Positions 1,379 through 24,873 of a stretch of DNA of 37,030 nucleotides are shown in pieces. A program made the translations under genes and the position numbers. The stretch lies in contig JAISTR010000044.1 of NCBI GenBank assembly GCA_031272515.1, positions 1 to 37,030 on the forward strand, given 5' to 3'. Within the stretch, counting starts at the first letter, position 1. Each line of letters opens with the position of its first letter. Below the pieces are notes generated by a model, which had not been told where the DNA came from, did no database searches, and saw nothing but the letters and a program-made list of their open reading frames with translations. This DNA comes from Erysipelotrichaceae bacterium (GTDB lineage: Bacteria > Bacillota_I > Bacilli_A > Erysipelotrichales > Erysipelotrichaceae).

Positions 1379-1424
1379 GTTTTTCCTCCCCCGCCCTTCA
1401 TACCAAATTTGTCTCTTTGTGAAA

Positions 1425-1453
1425 AGGATAGCATGGGGAAACAGTTTTTTCAA
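1425..1453 (-). promoter_or_regulatory. Promoter of the Crp/Fnr-type gene
   Basis: Minus-strand -35 TTGAAA (1448-1453), 17-base spacer, -10 TATCCT (1425-1430) with an extended TG upstream of the -10. It lies 46 bases from the chosen ATG and supports that start. Confidence 0.6.
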
Positions 1454-1481
1454 AACGAAACCGGTTGCTTTTTTAAGGTAT

Positions 1482-1507
1482 AAAAAAGCCGCTACCAAAG
1501 CGGCTTT
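1482..1507 (-). terminator. Rho-independent terminator after the DinB-like pseudogene
   Basis: Perfect 7-bp stem AAGCCGC/GCGGCTT (1486-1492 and 1500-1506) with a 7-base loop. On the minus strand it is followed by a run of T. It ends the DUF2461/DinB-like transcript and separates it from the Crp/Fnr-type gene. Confidence 0.8.
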
Positions 1508-14109: not shown

Positions 14110-15570
14110 TTATTCCAGAACCAGTACCTTGGTAGCCACCTTCTCCATAAATGCCTGGTCATGTTCAATCACCATCAGGGTCGGCTGCATTTTCAGGATC
14201 AATTCCTCCAGCTGCAGGCGGCTGGGCAGGTCCACATAGTTGAAGGGTTCATCCCAGAGGTAGAGGTGTGCCGACTCGCAAAGGCTCTTGGCAATCAGCA
14301 CCTTCTTCTTCTGCCCTTCGCTGAGCTGCTGCAGGTTATGTTCAAGTTCCTTGCGCAAAAAACCAAGCCGGTTCAAATTACCCAGCAGCGTGGTATAGTC
14401 AACCTGCTGTTCTTTCGCAAAAGCAAGGAGGCTGCCGTTAACACTGCCGGTTGATTGCGGCAGGTAGGAAATGATCAGATTGCCCACCTTGAGGATTCCG
14501 GTACTCTCAATTTCCTGTCCCAGGATTTTTTTGAAGAGCGTGGATTTCCCGGACCCGTTGGGTCCGCTGACGGCGATTCTTTCTGACTGGTACAGCTCAA
14601 AGTTCAAGGGTTTTGTGACGGCTTTATGGTCATAGTAAAGCACCAAGTCTTTGGCATACACCAAAAGTTTACTGTGGTAAGCCATGGGGTTCATCTTCAA
14701 GGGCACCTGGATTTCCTCATCCTGCAAGAGCTGCTGCTTCTCCTTTATCGCCTGCTTTTGGCGATGCTCGATACTCTTGGCCCGCTTCATCATCTTTGCG
14801 GCCTGATGTCCGATATAGCCGCGGTCCACCGGACCATTGCCGGTTTTTGAGGCCTCCACCTGGTCCGACCAGCCGGCGGTACGCCGTGCCGCCTTTTCCA
14901 TGACCTTGATTTCTTTTTTCAGCTGCTTGTTTTTCTCCTGTTCAAAGCGCACCTGCTTTTCCTTCTCCTTTTGCCATACGGAGTAGCTGCCCTGGGTCAG
15001 GTCGATGCTGGCCTTATTGAGGGAAAGGGTATGGTCGGTAGCGCCATCCAGCAATTTGCGGTTATGGGAAACCAGGATAAACCCCTGTTTGCCCTTCAGG
15101 TAGTCCATAAGGATTTGTTGGCCCTTTAAATCCAGGTGACTGCTTGGCTCATCCAATAACAGAAACTGATTCTCCATTAAAAACAAAGCCGCAATCAAGA
15201 CCTTTGTACGCTCCCCCTGGCTTAAGGTTGTAAACGGACGCTCTAGTGCTTCCTCTTGTACCTCTAAAAGCGAGCACTCTTTTATAATCTGCCAGTTAAA
15301 AGCCTGGGGGGAGATGCTGTGGATTACTTCCATAGCGCTCTGATTTTGTTCTTTGACTGTAAACGGAAAATAGGAAAAGCCCACCGGACTGTTGATTTTG
15401 CCGGTGTAATCCAGTTGTCCCAGCAGAATCTTGAGAAAGGTGGTCTTGCCCCGGCCGTTGCGGCCGGTGAAGCCCAGCTTCCAGCTGGTATCAAAGCGAA
15501 AAGAAACCCGGTCAAAGACCAGGGTTCCGTCATCAAAAGAAAAACTGAGATTTTGTATATCAATCAACAT
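14110..15570 (-). CDS. ABC-F ribosomal protection protein, Lsa-like
   Basis: A 486-residue ABC-F ATPase with two nucleotide-binding domains and no membrane segment. Domain 1 has Walker A GRNGRGKTT, signature LSQGERTKV and Walker B FLLLDEPSSHLD. Domain 2 has GPNGSGKST, LSEGQKKKV and LYLWDEP. The linker contains the basic ARRTAGWSDQ and AAKMMKRAKSIEHR segments typical of Lsa/Vga-type proteins that bind the ribosomal E site and displace lincosamide, streptogramin A and pleuromutilin antibiotics. The N-terminus (DTSWKLGFTGRNGRGKTT) resembles LsaA. Whether this copy gives resistance is unknown. The ATG at 15570 follows GGAGG. The 95-base leader holds a six-codon peptide and alternative hairpins, suggesting drug-induced attenuation. 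Confidence 0.9.
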   Translation of the reverse strand: MLIDIQNLSFSFDDGTLVFDRVSFRFDTSWKLGFTGRNGRGKTTFLKILLGQLDYTGKINSPVGFSYFPFTVKEQNQSAMEVIHSISPQAFNWQIIKECSLLEVQEEALERPFTTLSQGERTKVLIAALFLMENQFLLLDEPSSHLDLKGQQILMDYLKGKQGFILVSHNRKLLDGATDHTLSLNKASIDLTQGSYSVWQKEKEKQVRFEQEKNKQLKKEIKVMEKAARRTAGWSDQVEASKTGNGPVDRGYIGHQAAKMMKRAKSIEHRQKQAIKEKQQLLQDEEIQVPLKMNPMAYHSKLLVYAKDLVLYYDHKAVTKPLNFELYQSERIAVSGPNGSGKSTLFKKILGQEIESTGILKVGNLIISYLPQSTGSVNGSLLAFAKEQQVDYTTLLGNLNRLGFLRKELEHNLQQLSEGQKKKVLIAKSLCESAHLYLWDEPFNYVDLPSRLQLEELILKMQPTLMVIEHDQAFMEKVATKVLVLE

Positions 15571-15585
15571 GTTTTGTCCTCCAAA

Positions 15586-15625
15586 GCAGAACTTCTGCCA
15601 CGGGCAAAACAAGCTTGTTTCGCCC
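15586..15625 (-). promoter_or_regulatory. Hairpins in the ABC-F leader (candidate attenuator)
   Basis: The minus-strand arm GGGCGAAACAAG pairs with CTTGTTTTGCCC (15602-15625, one G-U). A second short hairpin GCAGA/TCTGC (15586-15598) lies just before the Shine-Dalgarno. The 3' arm of the first hairpin (GCAAAACAA complement, 15604-15612) can instead pair perfectly over nine bases with the leader peptide codons at 15640-15648. The two folds exclude each other. Confidence 0.6.
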
Positions 15626-15632
15626 TATTCAG

Positions 15633-15653
15633 TTACGCTTTGTTTTGCAACAT
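15633..15653 (-). CDS. Leader peptide MLQNKA upstream of the ABC-F gene
   Basis: A six-codon ORF with a strong Shine-Dalgarno (AGGGGGTG) about five bases before the ATG at 15653, ending in TAA. It begins 11 bases after the stop codon of the TPR gene. Short translated leaders are common in front of ABC-F resistance genes, where a stalled ribosome changes the mRNA fold. Here codons 2-5 are part of one of two competing structures. Expression is not shown. Confidence 0.55.
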   Translation of the reverse strand: MLQNKA

Positions 15654-15664
15654 CTTTTCACCCC

Positions 15665-18109
15665 CTAATGTCCGGCAGAGCAGAAATAGCTGTCCGGGTT
15701 GTTTTGGATATAGTAGGTCCAGTCCGCCTGGGTGGAGATCAATTGCGGCGAGACATAGAAGCGTTCGTTTACAATCGAAAAGTAGAAATGATACCATTCC
15801 CCGGCACTGTCCTGTACCTTCGCATAGTAGAAGCTGTCCCCTACCGACTGGTAGGTTCCGGTATAGTAGGTATTCCCGCTGAGCATCAGGTTCTCCAAAC
15901 TCAAAGTCAAAGTCGAACCGTCATCACAAACCCAGCTCAAATTGTCATAGTACAAAGCACTGCCCTCTGGCATTTCCACAGTCGCGCCATCACTTGGCGT
16001 AAAGACCGACATGCCTTCAATCACCGCCACATAGCCTGAATCATCCGCCAAAGCCACCCAGGTATAACCGGCGACCTGGCTTGTGGTCACGCCCTTGACA
16101 GCGTATTCCCCCTTGGCCAAACGTTCCCCGGTATCGGTGCCATTGGGAGCGGTGCGGACCTTCACGGTCGTATCCACCAGCACCTGCAGGGTGCCGGCCG
16201 TCGACTGTACGGTCGCGCCGTTGGCTTCCCAGGTTTCGGCAGTCATTTTAATCGGGGTAAAGGTAATTGGCGTCTTATTGATGACAACATCTTCAATCGG
16301 TTCGTCATTACCGGTAGTGTCATTATTGCTTTCCTTCTTGGGAGAGAGCATCCGCCAGACAAAGAAGCCCAAAACGGCACCGACAATCAGCGCTCCGACC
16401 AAAACGATGATCCAGACCTTCGATCCGCCAGATCCTTCCTCATCCTCATCTTCGTCATCCTCATCCTCATCCAAATCAGGATCCTGCGGTTTTGGCTGAT
16501 CCACTAACAGCTTCTTGCCGGATTTCTTGGGGGCATAGGCCGGGAGTTCCTCCGCTGGCTGGACTGGTAAGGCTGTCTTGGCCGGTCTGAAAATCGGCAC
16601 ATCCGGCTCGATGCCGGGTTCCACATTGGGCAGGGTTCTTGAAAGCGGGCTGGCCGGCTGCACAGCCGGCTGATTCACCAAAGGCGGCAAGGTATTCTGC
16701 ACCGGCTGGGCCGGCGGTACCAGGGTTGGTGCCGGCGCTATCGATGGTAAAACCGGTTCTTCTGTCAGGGTGGGGGCGGGTTTTGGAGTAATCCGCGGCA
16801 GGCCGGTAGTGGTTTCCTCTTTGGCCTGATGGAACATCGCCAGCCGTTTCTTGAGGTCCTGCACCTTCTCCGCTTCCTTGCGGGAGAGCACTGCCTGCTG
16901 GCTCTCTGGTGAGGCTTTGGGATTGCTGGGATCGATAAACAGCGCCGTGTCATAGGCATAGCGGGCAATCTCCCGCTGTCCTTCCACCAAGCTCAAGCGG
17001 CCCAGTGCCGCCCAGCTGTCGCTGTCAAAGGGCGCATAGGTCAAAAGCGAATCGATGACCTTCTTGCCCTGTTTGGGATTGTCCTGCGATAAAAGATTAT
17101 CCAATAATGCAAACAAATCCAGGTAGTTGTTGCTGTTGGCTGCCCGGGTTTGGGCCTGCTTTTGAAGCAATGCATCCCTTAGTTCCTCGGGTTTGTTTTT
17201 GGCATAGCCTTTCAGGGATTCCATCAGTTCAAAGGGATCCCCGGTTTCACTGACACCCAGGGTTGCCATAATCTCTTCGAGATGGACCACCGGGTCGGTT
17301 TGGTTGAATTGGGAAACCACCTGCATCGCCCGTTGGCGCAGGTCGTTTCTTCTGGTATTGGAATTCAAAAATTCATTGAAATAGGCAAGGGCGGTTTCCG
17401 GGTCCTTGGGGGTAGTGATTCCCTCCAAAGCACTCAGGCCCTGGTAGTACAGGGCTTCCGGTACCCGCATGGTATCCAGCTTGTCAAAGATGCGGTAGGC
17501 CCTGCCGATATCCTGGTTGACCTGGGAACTGCCGGAAAGGCTGGTCTCTCCCAAACTCAAAAGCACATCGGCAACCTCTTGCACAATGTTCTGGTAGTCG
17601 TTGCGGTTTTCCAGCTGACCCCACTTGTCCAGGATGGTCATGCAGATCTGGACCAGGTGGTTGTAGTCCTGCTCGTCCTGATAGCTTAGGACAATCTTGT
17701 CATTGTCCCTTCCCAGGTAGTGATGCAGGTCGGAGAGACAGGAAAAAAAGATGGAAGTCTGAACGGCCGTAGATACGGATGGATCCGGTTTGATGTAATC
17801 GGAGAAATACTCGGCCAGATTGTTTACTTCACTGTATTGTTTCAAGGCAAAGCGCGAAAGGATCAAATCCTTCAATACACTGCCTACATCTACGATGCGG
17901 TTTTTCTCTATAATGGCCTGCAATGCCAGCTCCGCATAACGGGCGGCTTTCTGGTAATCACGGGCCGATCGGTAACAGGTTGCACAAAGGCTGAGCGCAT
18001 CGACATCCTTGCTGTCGGTTTCCAGCTCTCCGGCCAGAAATCCCAGCGCATCTTCGAATTGCTCATTCAAGATCATTTTCTCTATCGTCTTTTTGGTTAT
18101 TTCTTTCAT
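15665..18109 (-). CDS. Large transmembrane TPR protein with extracellular SH3-like region
   Basis: An 814-residue single-pass membrane protein. Residues 1-400 are helical with TPR-like repeats (for example ALGFLAGELETDSKDVDALSL and the ALAYFNEFLNSNT stretch), predicted cytosolic. A Pro-rich linker (about 435-530) and an acidic run (DLDEDEDDEDEDEE) lead into a membrane helix (about 565-588, VWIIVLVGALIVGAVLGFF). The C-terminal 220 residues, predicted outside, contain an SH3b-like segment (VKVRTAPNGTDTG, then WVALADDSGYVAV) and a C-terminal domain of unknown family. The layout suggests coupling of an outside signal or wall contact to cytosolic partners; no function is known to me. The start has GGGGG upstream and an extended -10 TATACT near 18170. 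Confidence 0.85.
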   Translation of the reverse strand: MKEITKKTIEKMILNEQFEDALGFLAGELETDSKDVDALSLCATCYRSARDYQKAARYAELALQAIIEKNRIVDVGSVLKDLILSRFALKQYSEVNNLAEYFSDYIKPDPSVSTAVQTSIFFSCLSDLHHYLGRDNDKIVLSYQDEQDYNHLVQICMTILDKWGQLENRNDYQNIVQEVADVLLSLGETSLSGSSQVNQDIGRAYRIFDKLDTMRVPEALYYQGLSALEGITTPKDPETALAYFNEFLNSNTRRNDLRQRAMQVVSQFNQTDPVVHLEEIMATLGVSETGDPFELMESLKGYAKNKPEELRDALLQKQAQTRAANSNNYLDLFALLDNLLSQDNPKQGKKVIDSLLTYAPFDSDSWAALGRLSLVEGQREIARYAYDTALFIDPSNPKASPESQQAVLSRKEAEKVQDLKKRLAMFHQAKEETTTGLPRITPKPAPTLTEEPVLPSIAPAPTLVPPAQPVQNTLPPLVNQPAVQPASPLSRTLPNVEPGIEPDVPIFRPAKTALPVQPAEELPAYAPKKSGKKLLVDQPKPQDPDLDEDEDDEDEDEEGSGGSKVWIIVLVGALIVGAVLGFFVWRMLSPKKESNNDTTGNDEPIEDVVINKTPITFTPIKMTAETWEANGATVQSTAGTLQVLVDTTVKVRTAPNGTDTGERLAKGEYAVKGVTTSQVAGYTWVALADDSGYVAVIEGMSVFTPSDGATVEMPEGSALYYDNLSWVCDDGSTLTLSLENLMLSGNTYYTGTYQSVGDSFYYAKVQDSAGEWYHFYFSIVNERFYVSPQLISTQADWTYYIQNNPDSYFCSAGH

Positions 18110-21784: not shown

Positions 21785-22750
21785 TCATTGCACTTTGCGC
21801 AGCGGGACAACACTCTCTTTCTTCTTTTCCTCAGGGCTGTTGACGCCCTTGATGGTGAGGGTTTGATAGGGAATGGAGATTCCCACCTCATCAAACCTCG
21901 CCTTGATGGCCAAGCGCAGTTCGCGCTCGACCTGCCAATGCTTGAGCTGGGCGGTCTTGCAGCGCACCACGACATCAACGCTGGAAGCGTTGAAGGCGGC
22001 GATCGCAAAGACGTCCGGCTTGCCCGCCAGCAGGTGCCTGTTATCCTTCTCATATTCATCCACCACTTCATGCAAAATCGCCACGACCCGCTCGGTGTTT
22101 TCCTCATAGCGGGTGGGGATGGTAATCTTGGCGACGCAGGAGCCACGGGAGTAGTTGGTAACCTTGGTGATGGTGCCGTTGGGTATGATTACCTGCAAGC
22201 CGTCAAAGGTTCGCAAATAGGTAACCCGCATGGCAATTGCCTCGACCGTGCCTTCGTTGTCATCCAGCTTTACATAGTCGCCAACCGAGTACTGGTTTTC
22301 AAAGACCATCAAGATTCCGGTCAACACGTCCTTCAATAAGCTTTGGGCACCAAAGGCGATGGCCAATGAGCCTACAGAGGCAGTAATGACCAGGTTGGTG
22401 ACGATGGTGCCAAAGCCCAGGACATTGAGAATCATCGCCAAACCGGTGAAATAAATCAGGTAGCGCATGACGCTGCGCGCCAGGGTCATGATCGAGCGGA
22501 TGCGCTTGCGGTGCGCTTCCGCATGCTTGGAAGGCCGGTCCATCAAAAACTTGGTGACGCGGGAAATCAAAGACATCGCGAAATTGCAGAAGACAAAAAT
22601 CAAGACAATCTGTAAAATCCGAAACAGATGAAAGCCCAGATTTCCGAAGATTTCCTCAATCCAGGCGGTTGCTGCCAAAAGGAACTGTTCCAGGATATTG
22701 GAAGGTTCGGTATCGGTGGTTGTTACTTTCATAAGGGTAATCCAGTTCAT
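21785..22750 (-). CDS. MscS-family mechanosensitive channel
   Basis: A 321-residue small-conductance mechanosensitive channel protein that would release solutes on hypo-osmotic shock. The pore helix and start of the beta domain read ASVGSLAIAFGAQSLLKD followed by GILMVFENQYSVGDYV, the MscS hallmark. About three membrane helices precede it (about 28-55, 80-105 and 108-130), and the C-terminal cytosolic domain ends in a basic tail. The start at 22750 has no Shine-Dalgarno and lies exactly six bases after an extended -10 (TGGTATTCT), suggesting a leaderless mRNA. A Met at codon 7 has no ribosome binding site either. It diverges from the M50-like genes. Confidence 0.93.
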   Translation of the reverse strand: MNWITLMKVTTTDTEPSNILEQFLLAATAWIEEIFGNLGFHLFRILQIVLIFVFCNFAMSLISRVTKFLMDRPSKHAEAHRKRIRSIMTLARSVMRYLIYFTGLAMILNVLGFGTIVTNLVITASVGSLAIAFGAQSLLKDVLTGILMVFENQYSVGDYVKLDDNEGTVEAIAMRVTYLRTFDGLQVIIPNGTITKVTNYSRGSCVAKITIPTRYEENTERVVAILHEVVDEYEKDNRHLLAGKPDVFAIAAFNASSVDVVVRCKTAQLKHWQVERELRLAIKARFDEVGISIPYQTLTIKGVNSPEEKKKESVVPLRKVQ

Positions 22751-22756
22751 AGATTA

Positions 22757-22765
22757 AGAATACCA
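22757..22765 (-). promoter_or_regulatory. Extended -10 of the MscS gene (leaderless type)
   Basis: Minus-strand TGGTATTCT (hexamer 22757-22762), then TAATCT, then the ATG. Predicted +1 is at or next to the start codon. Confidence 0.55.
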
Positions 22766-22816
22766 CACAATCCTTTTTTTGAGACAAAGAGCGTAAAAAA
22801 CAAAGTGTTATCCAGT

Positions 22817-22822
22817 TATAAT
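22817..22822 (+). promoter_or_regulatory. -10 of the first M50-like gene (leaderless type)
   Basis: TATAAT followed by six bases and the ATG at 22829, with no Shine-Dalgarno and only a weak -35. Confidence 0.55.
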
Positions 22823-22828
22823 GAAAGC

Positions 22829-23821
22829 ATGGATATCTTGCGTATATTCACTTATCTTTTGGGTGCCATCTGCGGTTATCTGCTGTCTGCCCCCCTGCAT
22901 GAGTGCGGACACCTTTTGGGCGGTTTATTAACAGGATACCGCTTTGTTTCGCTGCGGGTGTTTCGGGTGGTGTTAAGCAGGGATGCGGGAGAATTCAAAC
23001 TTTCACTTCTCAAGTCACGCAAAGGTGCCGCCGCCGGTGCTTGTGATATGAGCCCGAAAGATGATCAGGCCGGGGTTTTTCTTGTGAATGCCGGTGGTCT
23101 CTTGGTAAATATGGGGCTTGCTATAATGGCGCTTTGGCTGCAGTATGTTTATCGAAGCTCTCCTGCCTTGAGCAGTTTCTTCCTTGGCTTTTTCCTTAAC
23201 AATATGATTGATTTTCTCTTCAATTTGATACCCCATACTTACCCCTCTGCCAATGACGGCCGCAATCTTTTGGAACTGCGCAACAAGGATGCCCGCAAGG
23301 CCTATATCACCTGTCTTCTCCTTTCTGATACTTTTGGTAAGTTCAAATGCTACCAGGATGTCACGGAAGCAGAGCTGATGCCTGCTGCCACTGCCAATAA
23401 AAACAACTACTTTGTCGTAGCGCTGTACATCATGTTAATCGAGTACTACCTGGCACACCAACAAATAGAGAAAGCCCAGCAGGTGTTGGATGATTTGCAC
23501 CCGGTGGGCTTGCCGCACTTTTATCAAAGCCAGCTGGAAGCCTACCGGCTCTACCTGGCTTTGATTCATCATGACTTGGAGCTTTCCAAACAGCTGCGTA
23601 CCAAAGAGGTCGAATCTGCCTTTTCGTTGGACGATACTGCCATGCTTTGCATTAAGGCCGCTTATGAAATACTTGTGGAAGGGGCTGATGGTGACGAATT
23701 ATTGGGTCAACTGCAGGCACATGTCAACCGCCACCCATTTGGAGAAAACCGGCTGGGAAATGAATACCTCAACCAGCTGCGAAGGCTGGTGGAAAATCAT
23801 CAAAACAAAGAAACAGTATAA
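22829..23821 (+). CDS. M50-like membrane metalloprotease with helical C-terminal domain, copy 1
   Basis: A 330-residue protein with a site-2-protease-like N-terminal half: HECGH (24-28, zinc-binding HExxH) in the first helix and FNLIPHTYPSANDG (the second motif N-x2-P...DG, with a metal-ligand Asp) after several helices. The C-terminal half (about 170-330) is soluble and helical with TPR-like character (IEKAQQVLDDL). The fold suggests intramembrane cleavage of a substrate recognised by the helical domain; this is inference. A longer frame to 22628 is rejected because it crosses the divergent MscS gene. A paralogue follows directly. Confidence 0.82.
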   Translation: MDILRIFTYLLGAICGYLLSAPLHECGHLLGGLLTGYRFVSLRVFRVVLSRDAGEFKLSLLKSRKGAAAGACDMSPKDDQAGVFLVNAGGLLVNMGLAIMALWLQYVYRSSPALSSFFLGFFLNNMIDFLFNLIPHTYPSANDGRNLLELRNKDARKAYITCLLLSDTFGKFKCYQDVTEAELMPAATANKNNYFVVALYIMLIEYYLAHQQIEKAQQVLDDLHPVGLPHFYQSQLEAYRLYLALIHHDLELSKQLRTKEVESAFSLDDTAMLCIKAAYEILVEGADGDELLGQLQAHVNRHPFGENRLGNEYLNQLRRLVENHQNKETV

Positions 23822-23822
23822 T
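23817..23822 (+). promoter_or_regulatory. Possible promoter between the M50-like paralogues
   Basis: TATAAT overlaps the stop codon of copy 1. Six bases later is an ATG (23829) that opens a 12-codon mini-ORF ending inside copy 2. Whether the mini-ORF is translated or only marks +1 is open. Confidence 0.4.
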
Positions 23823-23853
23823 AAACATATGAAAGGTTCTTTGGGGAAAAACG

Positions 23854-24873
23854 ATGCCGGCTTATAACAGCATGGCATTCATCGTGGCTTGGATCATCTT
23901 TAGCGCTCTTGGCTATTTGAGCGGTTTTCTTTTGTCGGTGCCAATACATGAATGCGGACACCTCTTGTTTGGCCTTGTCAGCGGTTACCGCTTTGTCTTT
24001 CTGCGCTTGTTTCGCTTTCTGTTTTATCGCGATAACAAAAAACTTGTGGTGACCCATTCGACACCGGTCCAGGGAATTGCCGGACAGTGCATCATGTGTC
24101 CGAAAAGCGATGCCACCGGGGTATTTCTTTATAATGCCGGCGGTTTTCTGGCCAATTTGATTGTCTCGCTATTTTGTTTCTGGCTTTGCTATGTACTCTT
24201 GAATACAAACACCTTGGCATTGACCTTCTATTTTCTGGGCTTTGGCTTGGTGAACCTGTTGACCGCCGCCATTAACCTGTTTCCCAAGACTAACCCAATC
24301 CCCAATGACGGCCGCAATCTTTTGGAGCTTCGTAACAAGGAGGCCCGCAAGGCCTTTCTGATTGGCTTGAAAGTCAATGCGCGACTGACAGAGGGAAACA
24401 GCTATTCGGTGTTTTCGCAAACAGAGCTGCTTCCCGCAATAAGCGCCGATAAAAACAACTACATGGTAGCCAACCAATATATCCTGCTGGCTTTGTATTA
24501 CAGCGAAGTAAACCAGCTTGAAAAAGCTGAAGCGGTACTTAAGAACCTGGATATTTCCAAGCTGCCGGTGATTTATCAGGGACAGGTACAGGTACACCTG
24601 CTCTATCTGGCCTTGTTAAAAAATGATCTGGGATTGGCGCGAAGTCTTTATACAGAAGCTGTGCAGCTGGTATTGACCAGCGGGGAGTTTGATTTGCTTT
24701 GTATCCGGGCTGCTTTTGATATCCTGGTACAGGGACACCCCGCCTTGGAAATACTGAAGCAGCTGGAAGAGATGGCAAACCGCTTCCCCACCTTTCAGCG
24801 GGCCAGGGCAATGGCTGATCTTGCGCAATTAAAACGGTTGATCCAAAAGAATTCAGCCTGGTTTCAATTTTGA
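23854..24873 (+). CDS. M50-like membrane metalloprotease with helical C-terminal domain, copy 2
   Basis: A 339-residue paralogue of the preceding gene with the same layout: HECGH (32-36), AINLFPKTNPIPNDG, then the shared NDGRNLLELRNK-ARKA junction and a soluble helical half (LEKAEAVLKNLD). Nucleotide identity is high around the second motif and low elsewhere, indicating an old tandem duplication. GGGGA lies before the ATG at 23854. The stop codon lies inside a 13-bp inverted repeat shared with the convergent AlaX-like gene; the two coding regions overlap by 10 bases. Confidence 0.82.
   Translation: MPAYNSMAFIVAWIIFSALGYLSGFLLSVPIHECGHLLFGLVSGYRFVFLRLFRFLFYRDNKKLVVTHSTPVQGIAGQCIMCPKSDATGVFLYNAGGFLANLIVSLFCFWLCYVLLNTNTLALTFYFLGFGLVNLLTAAINLFPKTNPIPNDGRNLLELRNKEARKAFLIGLKVNARLTEGNSYSVFSQTELLPAISADKNNYMVANQYILLALYYSEVNQLEKAEAVLKNLDISKLPVIYQGQVQVHLLYLALLKNDLGLARSLYTEAVQLVLTSGEFDLLCIRAAFDILVQGHPALEILKQLEEMANRFPTFQRARAMADLAQLKRLIQKNSAWFQF

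Follow-up and report, generated by a model that had tools for sequence, protein, structure and literature searches.

How is an Lsa-type ABC-F gene regulated, if it is regulated at all, when only 94 nt separate its start from the stop codon of the gene upstream? Both a six-codon leader ORF and a palindrome are found inside this interval. The locus belongs to a contig of an Erysipelotrichaceae bacterium (JAISTR010000044.1), of which a stretch of 37,030 nt was analysed; further in this study the whole stretch is referred to as the window. A preliminary description of the window suggested ribosome-mediated attenuation by mutually exclusive hairpins. Following the analysis given below, we consider it probable, at roughly 0.6, that the interval attenuates translation of this Lsa-type ribosome-protection gene, in a compact form and without a terminator.

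The ABC-F gene and its surroundings

The top-scoring family for the ABC-F product, by a wide margin, is NCBIfam ABCF_Lsa_all (NF000167), with 608.8 bits, a score under the curated cutoff of 750. The product scores above the curated cutoff of NF000355 (ABC-F ribosomal protection-like protein; 429.3 bits, cutoff 380) and is matched by Lsa(A) of known structure (7nhk) with an E-value of 4.9e-118. Two intact ATPase sites are present (Walker A 36/336, signature 116/416, DEP 140/440). These sequence matches point to a probable antibiotic-protection protein of the Lsa type and agree with the earlier assignment of the downstream gene as Lsa-like ABC-F.

The genes and the elements of the intergenic region are listed in Table 1. 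The region is flanked by an imperfect direct repeat (15575-15591 and 15669-15685, 82% over 17 nt, the copies being 94 nt apart). Elsewhere in the window, at 22628-24873 on the plus strand, two adjacent and similar membrane-protein ORFs of 397 and 339 aa have an HECGHLL motif each; this is likely a tandem duplication of a metalloprotease-like gene.

At the gathering level, Rfam gave no match in the window apart from a tRNA elsewhere, and its matches for the leader region were at chance level only (E 2-4). Comparison of the 111-nt region with 272 genomes of the family retrieved only the region itself and chance-level matches. No viral contigs were found.

Leader ORF, palindrome and competing pairings

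The leader ORF MLQNKA begins 12 nt past the stop codon of the upstream gene, and this stop codon overlaps the leader Shine-Dalgarno (SD) sequence. The leader SD is calculated to pair more strongly with the 16S tail than does the SD of the ABC-F gene. Ribosomes leaving the upstream gene might read the leader. The strong SD of the ORF on the minus strand, the near-perfect 24-base palindrome behind it and the complementarity of nine leader bases to the palindrome 3' arm had all been noted before, and each was recovered here.

Table 1. Genes, leader elements and pairing segments of the ABC-F locus, with the leader region of a related locus (L142, in its own coordinates). SD energies are computed pairings with the 16S tail.
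Feature	Position	Strand	Remarks
ABC-F gene, Lsa family	14110..15570	-	486 aa, ATG at 15570; profile matches and motifs
Upstream gene, TPR-repeat protein (weak matches)	15665..18109	-	ORF list, TPR matches
TAG stop of upstream gene	15667-15665	-	overlaps leader SD
SD of leader ORF, AGGGGGTGA	15666-15658	-	sequence and duplex energy, -15.2 kcal/mol
Leader ORF MLQNKA	15653-15633	-	ATG TTG CAA AAC AAA GCG TAA, six codons
Segment 1, leader GCAAAACAA	15648-15640	-	9/9 complement of 15612-15604
Leader end CAAAGCGUAACU	15642-15631	-	pairs with AGUUCUGCUUUG in the ribosome-free fold
Palindrome GGGCGAAACAAG/CTTGTTTTGCCC	15625-15602	-	24 bp, 12-nt arms, 92% complementary, no spacer
Segment 2, palindrome 5' arm GGGCGAAACA	15616..15625	-	hairpin 2:3, -13.7 kcal/mol
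Segment 3, palindrome 3' arm UGUUUUGCCC	15602..15611	-	can pair with segment 2 or 4
Small hairpin GGCAGA-AGU-UCUGCU	15585..15599	-	-5.7 kcal/mol, between segments 3 and 4
SD of ABC-F gene, GGAGG	15578..15582	-	-9.3 kcal/mol
Segment 4, GGACAAAACA	15579-15570	-	9/10 complementary to segment 3
L142 leader region	about 1418-1491		ABC-F ATG at about 1492

The dyad of the palindrome passes through a centre AAGCTT. Three inverted repeats share its 3' arm, the partners being the 5' arm (12 nt, 92%), the leader codons (9 nt, 100%) and GGACAAAACA (10 nt, 90%). The last of these, segment 4, covers the end of the ABC-F SD and the bases that follow it as far as the A of the AUG; the small hairpin is nested within helix 3:4. 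Further, the minimum-energy fold contains a helix between CAAAGCGUAACU (15642-15631) and AGUUCUGCUUUG (15593-15582) with 11 pairs and one mismatch (-9.5 kcal/mol), and its downstream strand reaches the first G of the ABC-F SD. Neither this helix nor the one between segments 3 and 4 was noticed in the preliminary description.

Folding with a ribosome on the leader

To model a ribosome on the leader, 30 nt of the transcript were masked for each codon position in turn; after folding, we computed how much energy is needed to open the start region of the ABC-F gene. For the transcript extending to +15, this cost equals 6.7 kcal with no ribosome and 6.9 kcal when the A site holds the stop codon. With a stalled ribosome it equals 2.7 kcal at codon 1 and 1.9-2.6 kcal at codons 2-5. 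In the same transcript, the probability of hairpin 2:3 is 0.99 when the ribosome is at codons 1-5, and that of helix 3:4 is 0.98 when it has reached the leader stop. Without a ribosome, most of the ABC-F SD is unpaired, pairing being confined to its 5' edge and the AUG. In the model, 2:3 and 3:4 are mutually exclusive folds and one of them hides the start site, in a manner that depends on the ribosome footprint and the transcript length. The idea of exclusive hairpins thus holds in silico for this pair, but not for the leader codons as a partner of segment 3, which are never populated in that role.

Sensitivity runs showed that the OFF state at the stop codon requires a 3' ribosome footprint of at least about 15 nt. 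The gap between the start-stalled and the ribosome-free states is smaller at +35 and reversed at +50, because the SD pairs with the early coding sequence; beyond about 45 nt of coding sequence, stalling at the start no longer gives a more open site than the ribosome-free state does. This length dependence of the folding is a genuine weakness of the model.

From the sequence elements and the pairing probabilities we infer translation of the leader, stalling by drugs and induction of the gene. In the absence of drug, either of two folds would make the ABC-F start site hard to reach. With no ribosome on the leader, hairpin 2:3 would stand atop the helix that joins the leader end to the bases next to the SD, whereas a ribosome at the leader stop would cover the foot of segment 2, and the freed segment 3 would pair with segment 4. 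A PTC drug (lincosamide, pleuromutilin or streptogramin A) would halt the ribosome while it reads the first codons of the leader. Such a start-stalled ribosome would mask the leader end and leave segment 2 free, so that hairpin 2:3 would form alone and the SD would be open. The logic would resemble that of the trp leader, with translation initiation instead of termination as the output. This specific scheme, in which completion of the leader represses, a ribosome frozen at the start opens, and the leader is readable from the upstream gene with no terminator involved, is put forward tentatively, as one possible form of the attenuator.

Leaders of Lsa-like relatives

For comparison, we used 114 Lsa-like loci for which upstream DNA was available. 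An SD-led leader of the form M-x-x-x-S-[C/Y] is present in 60 of the 114 relatives and near 1 of 205 control genes. Examples are MIITSC, MKMFSC, MIIISC and MYNFSC, the last from the mobile lsa(E) plasmid locus (L151), and most have six codons. The distance from these leaders to the ABC-F start ranges over 70-380 nt, and a terminator generally accompanies them. A perfect downstream complement of at least 8 bases exists for the leader in nearly half of the 60 S-[C/Y] loci. In one locus (L015), as read by eye, a recurring element would let the leader, a middle segment and the terminator arm exchange partners. Rfam gave nothing at the gathering level in the 12 relatives' loci searched.

MLQNKA is outside this family: it has six codons, but positions 5-6 are neither S-C nor S-Y. 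The GCAAGAAA element, the S-C peptide and a terminator are all absent from the window. The closest homologue shares about 52% identity, and the DNA upstream of it is unrelated. Loci with S-[C/Y] leaders occur in many parts of the protein tree; the window protein forms a long branch of unsure placement among them. Hence MLQNKA may be a replacement. A literature search whose coverage of subscription journals was thin retrieved no relevant paper either for MLQNKA or for the S-C leaders.

A compact terminator-free leader also occurs in another genome of the same family (L142), where MKTISC precedes an Lsa-like gene by 74 nt. The leader codons themselves are able to pair with the SD of that gene, and the opening cost is 10.7 for the free transcript, 3.6 for the start-stalled one and 6.6 with the ribosome at the stop.

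As a separate observation, the DNA of locus L127 from a genome of the same family (G069) is 96.4% identical over 1887 nt to the lsa(E) locus of the Enterococcus plasmid (L151). The stretch takes in about 400 nt upstream, and the identity suggests recent transfer.

Chance and other explanations

The ABC-F gene could be translated constitutively as part of an operon, the leader ORF and the hairpin having no regulatory role. Taken singly, the elements are indeed modest. With control genes drawn from the loci of the relatives compared here, an SD-led uORF of 3-12 codons was found within 119 nt of 16 of the 349 genes, and 4% of dinucleotide shuffles yield a stem of 10 bp. The leader ORF alone is therefore unremarkable; together with the switch it is remarkable. 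The modelled switch size (3.93 kcal) was reached in 0 of 600 shuffles of the spacer in which the leader, SD and start were kept, and in 1% of whole-sequence shuffles. Upstream of other ORFs in the related loci, 14 uORFs from 342 control genes were suitable for scoring, and all stayed at or below 1.3 kcal, compared to 3.9 kcal here. One of the 14 is MIITSC, probably itself an ABC-F leader that was reached via an alternative ORF. Moreover, leader control is usual for ABC-F resistance genes of the Lsa family. The combination of elements is unlikely to have arisen by chance, and we regard the constitutive explanation as unlikely, though it deserves to be kept in mind.

A near-perfect 24-bp dyad with no spacer could also be a DNA operator bound by a transcription factor. 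The palindrome, however, is located downstream of the leader ORF, and no promoter-like site was found just upstream or nearby on the minus strand. The palindrome has no second copy in the window, and no similar site was found among the DNA matches in the same genome. An operator would also leave the match of the 3' arm to the SD-AUG segment unexplained. We consider this explanation very unlikely.

Slightly less probable still is the switch proposed in the preliminary description, where segment 1 pairs with segment 3 until a stalled ribosome releases the latter to hairpin 2:3. The perfect nine-base complement gives it some appeal (p=0.007 with the 3' arm held fixed). However, the probability of 1:3 is 0.00 for all ribosome positions, mask sizes and transcript lengths tried. 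Hairpin 2:3 is local, the first to form and stronger (-13.7 kcal/mol against -8.9 kcal/mol for 1:3). Furthermore, pairing of 1:3 would leave the SD free and hence would not be an OFF state. Ribosome-mediated attenuation as such remains the best reading of the locus and fits the leaders of the family; it is the choice of pairing partners that is not supported.

Finally, transcription attenuation with the hairpin as a conditional terminator, suggested by terminator-like hairpins upstream in 87 of the 114 Lsa-like loci, is extremely improbable here, since GTGGCAG follows the hairpin in the window, no U-tract lies between the hairpin and the gene, and the hairpin is thus not a terminator. Given that no terminator is present, the control would be translational attenuation by drugs that stall ribosomes at the start of the leader.

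Comparison with known systems

Attenuators of the ermC and trp types have mutually exclusive hairpins that are read by the position of a ribosome on the leader ORF. The translational attenuator proposed here would share with them exclusive hairpins governed by the leader ribosome. It differs in the same-sense motif that recurs in segments 1, 2 and 4, and in that the proposed OFF helix would form with the ribosome at the leader stop, the output being access to the SD. The M-x-x-x-S-[C/Y] leaders precede genes of the same protein family and likewise are mostly six codons long with an SD. Their peptides, however, are unrelated to MLQNKA, and usually they lie 140-380 nt upstream and have terminators.

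Very short uORFs control the ABC-F genes vmlR (MIN) and vmlR2, and a uORF MAGN has been predicted for lsaA (PMC10201436). For cplR from Clostridioides difficile, with the uORF MRI, the translational and transcriptional layers were tested separately, and translational attenuation by sequestering the SD was shown experimentally (PMC10201436). The window resembles cplR in having an ABC-F gene under a very short uORF. In contrast, cplR has an intrinsic terminator and belongs to another ABC-F subfamily (ARE1), whereas the window has no terminator, a leader of six codons and a 94-nt spacer after the upstream gene. In vmlR from Bacillus subtilis, a short uORF (MIN) likewise precedes an ABC-F gene for lincosamides, pleuromutilins and streptogramin A; there, translation attenuation is one of several layers, and transcription attenuation and RNA polymerase pausing also take part (PMC9226507). 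In S. coelicolor genes, lincosamides, tiamulin and pristinamycin IIA have been described to stall ribosomes on the start codon of the uORF (PMC12421871).

Implications

Leader attenuation of ABC-F genes is a known kind of control, and its form in the window is unusually compact and terminator-free. If the proposed translational attenuation is true, an Lsa-like gene would be kept silent until a PTC drug comes, with 94 nt and no terminator. This suggests that the sequence of the leader peptide may drift freely where drugs act at the start codon, in which case the RNA pairing would be the constraint. The common leader type, shared by half of the Lsa relatives, mobile lsa(E) among them, would provide a testable signature of inducible resistance.
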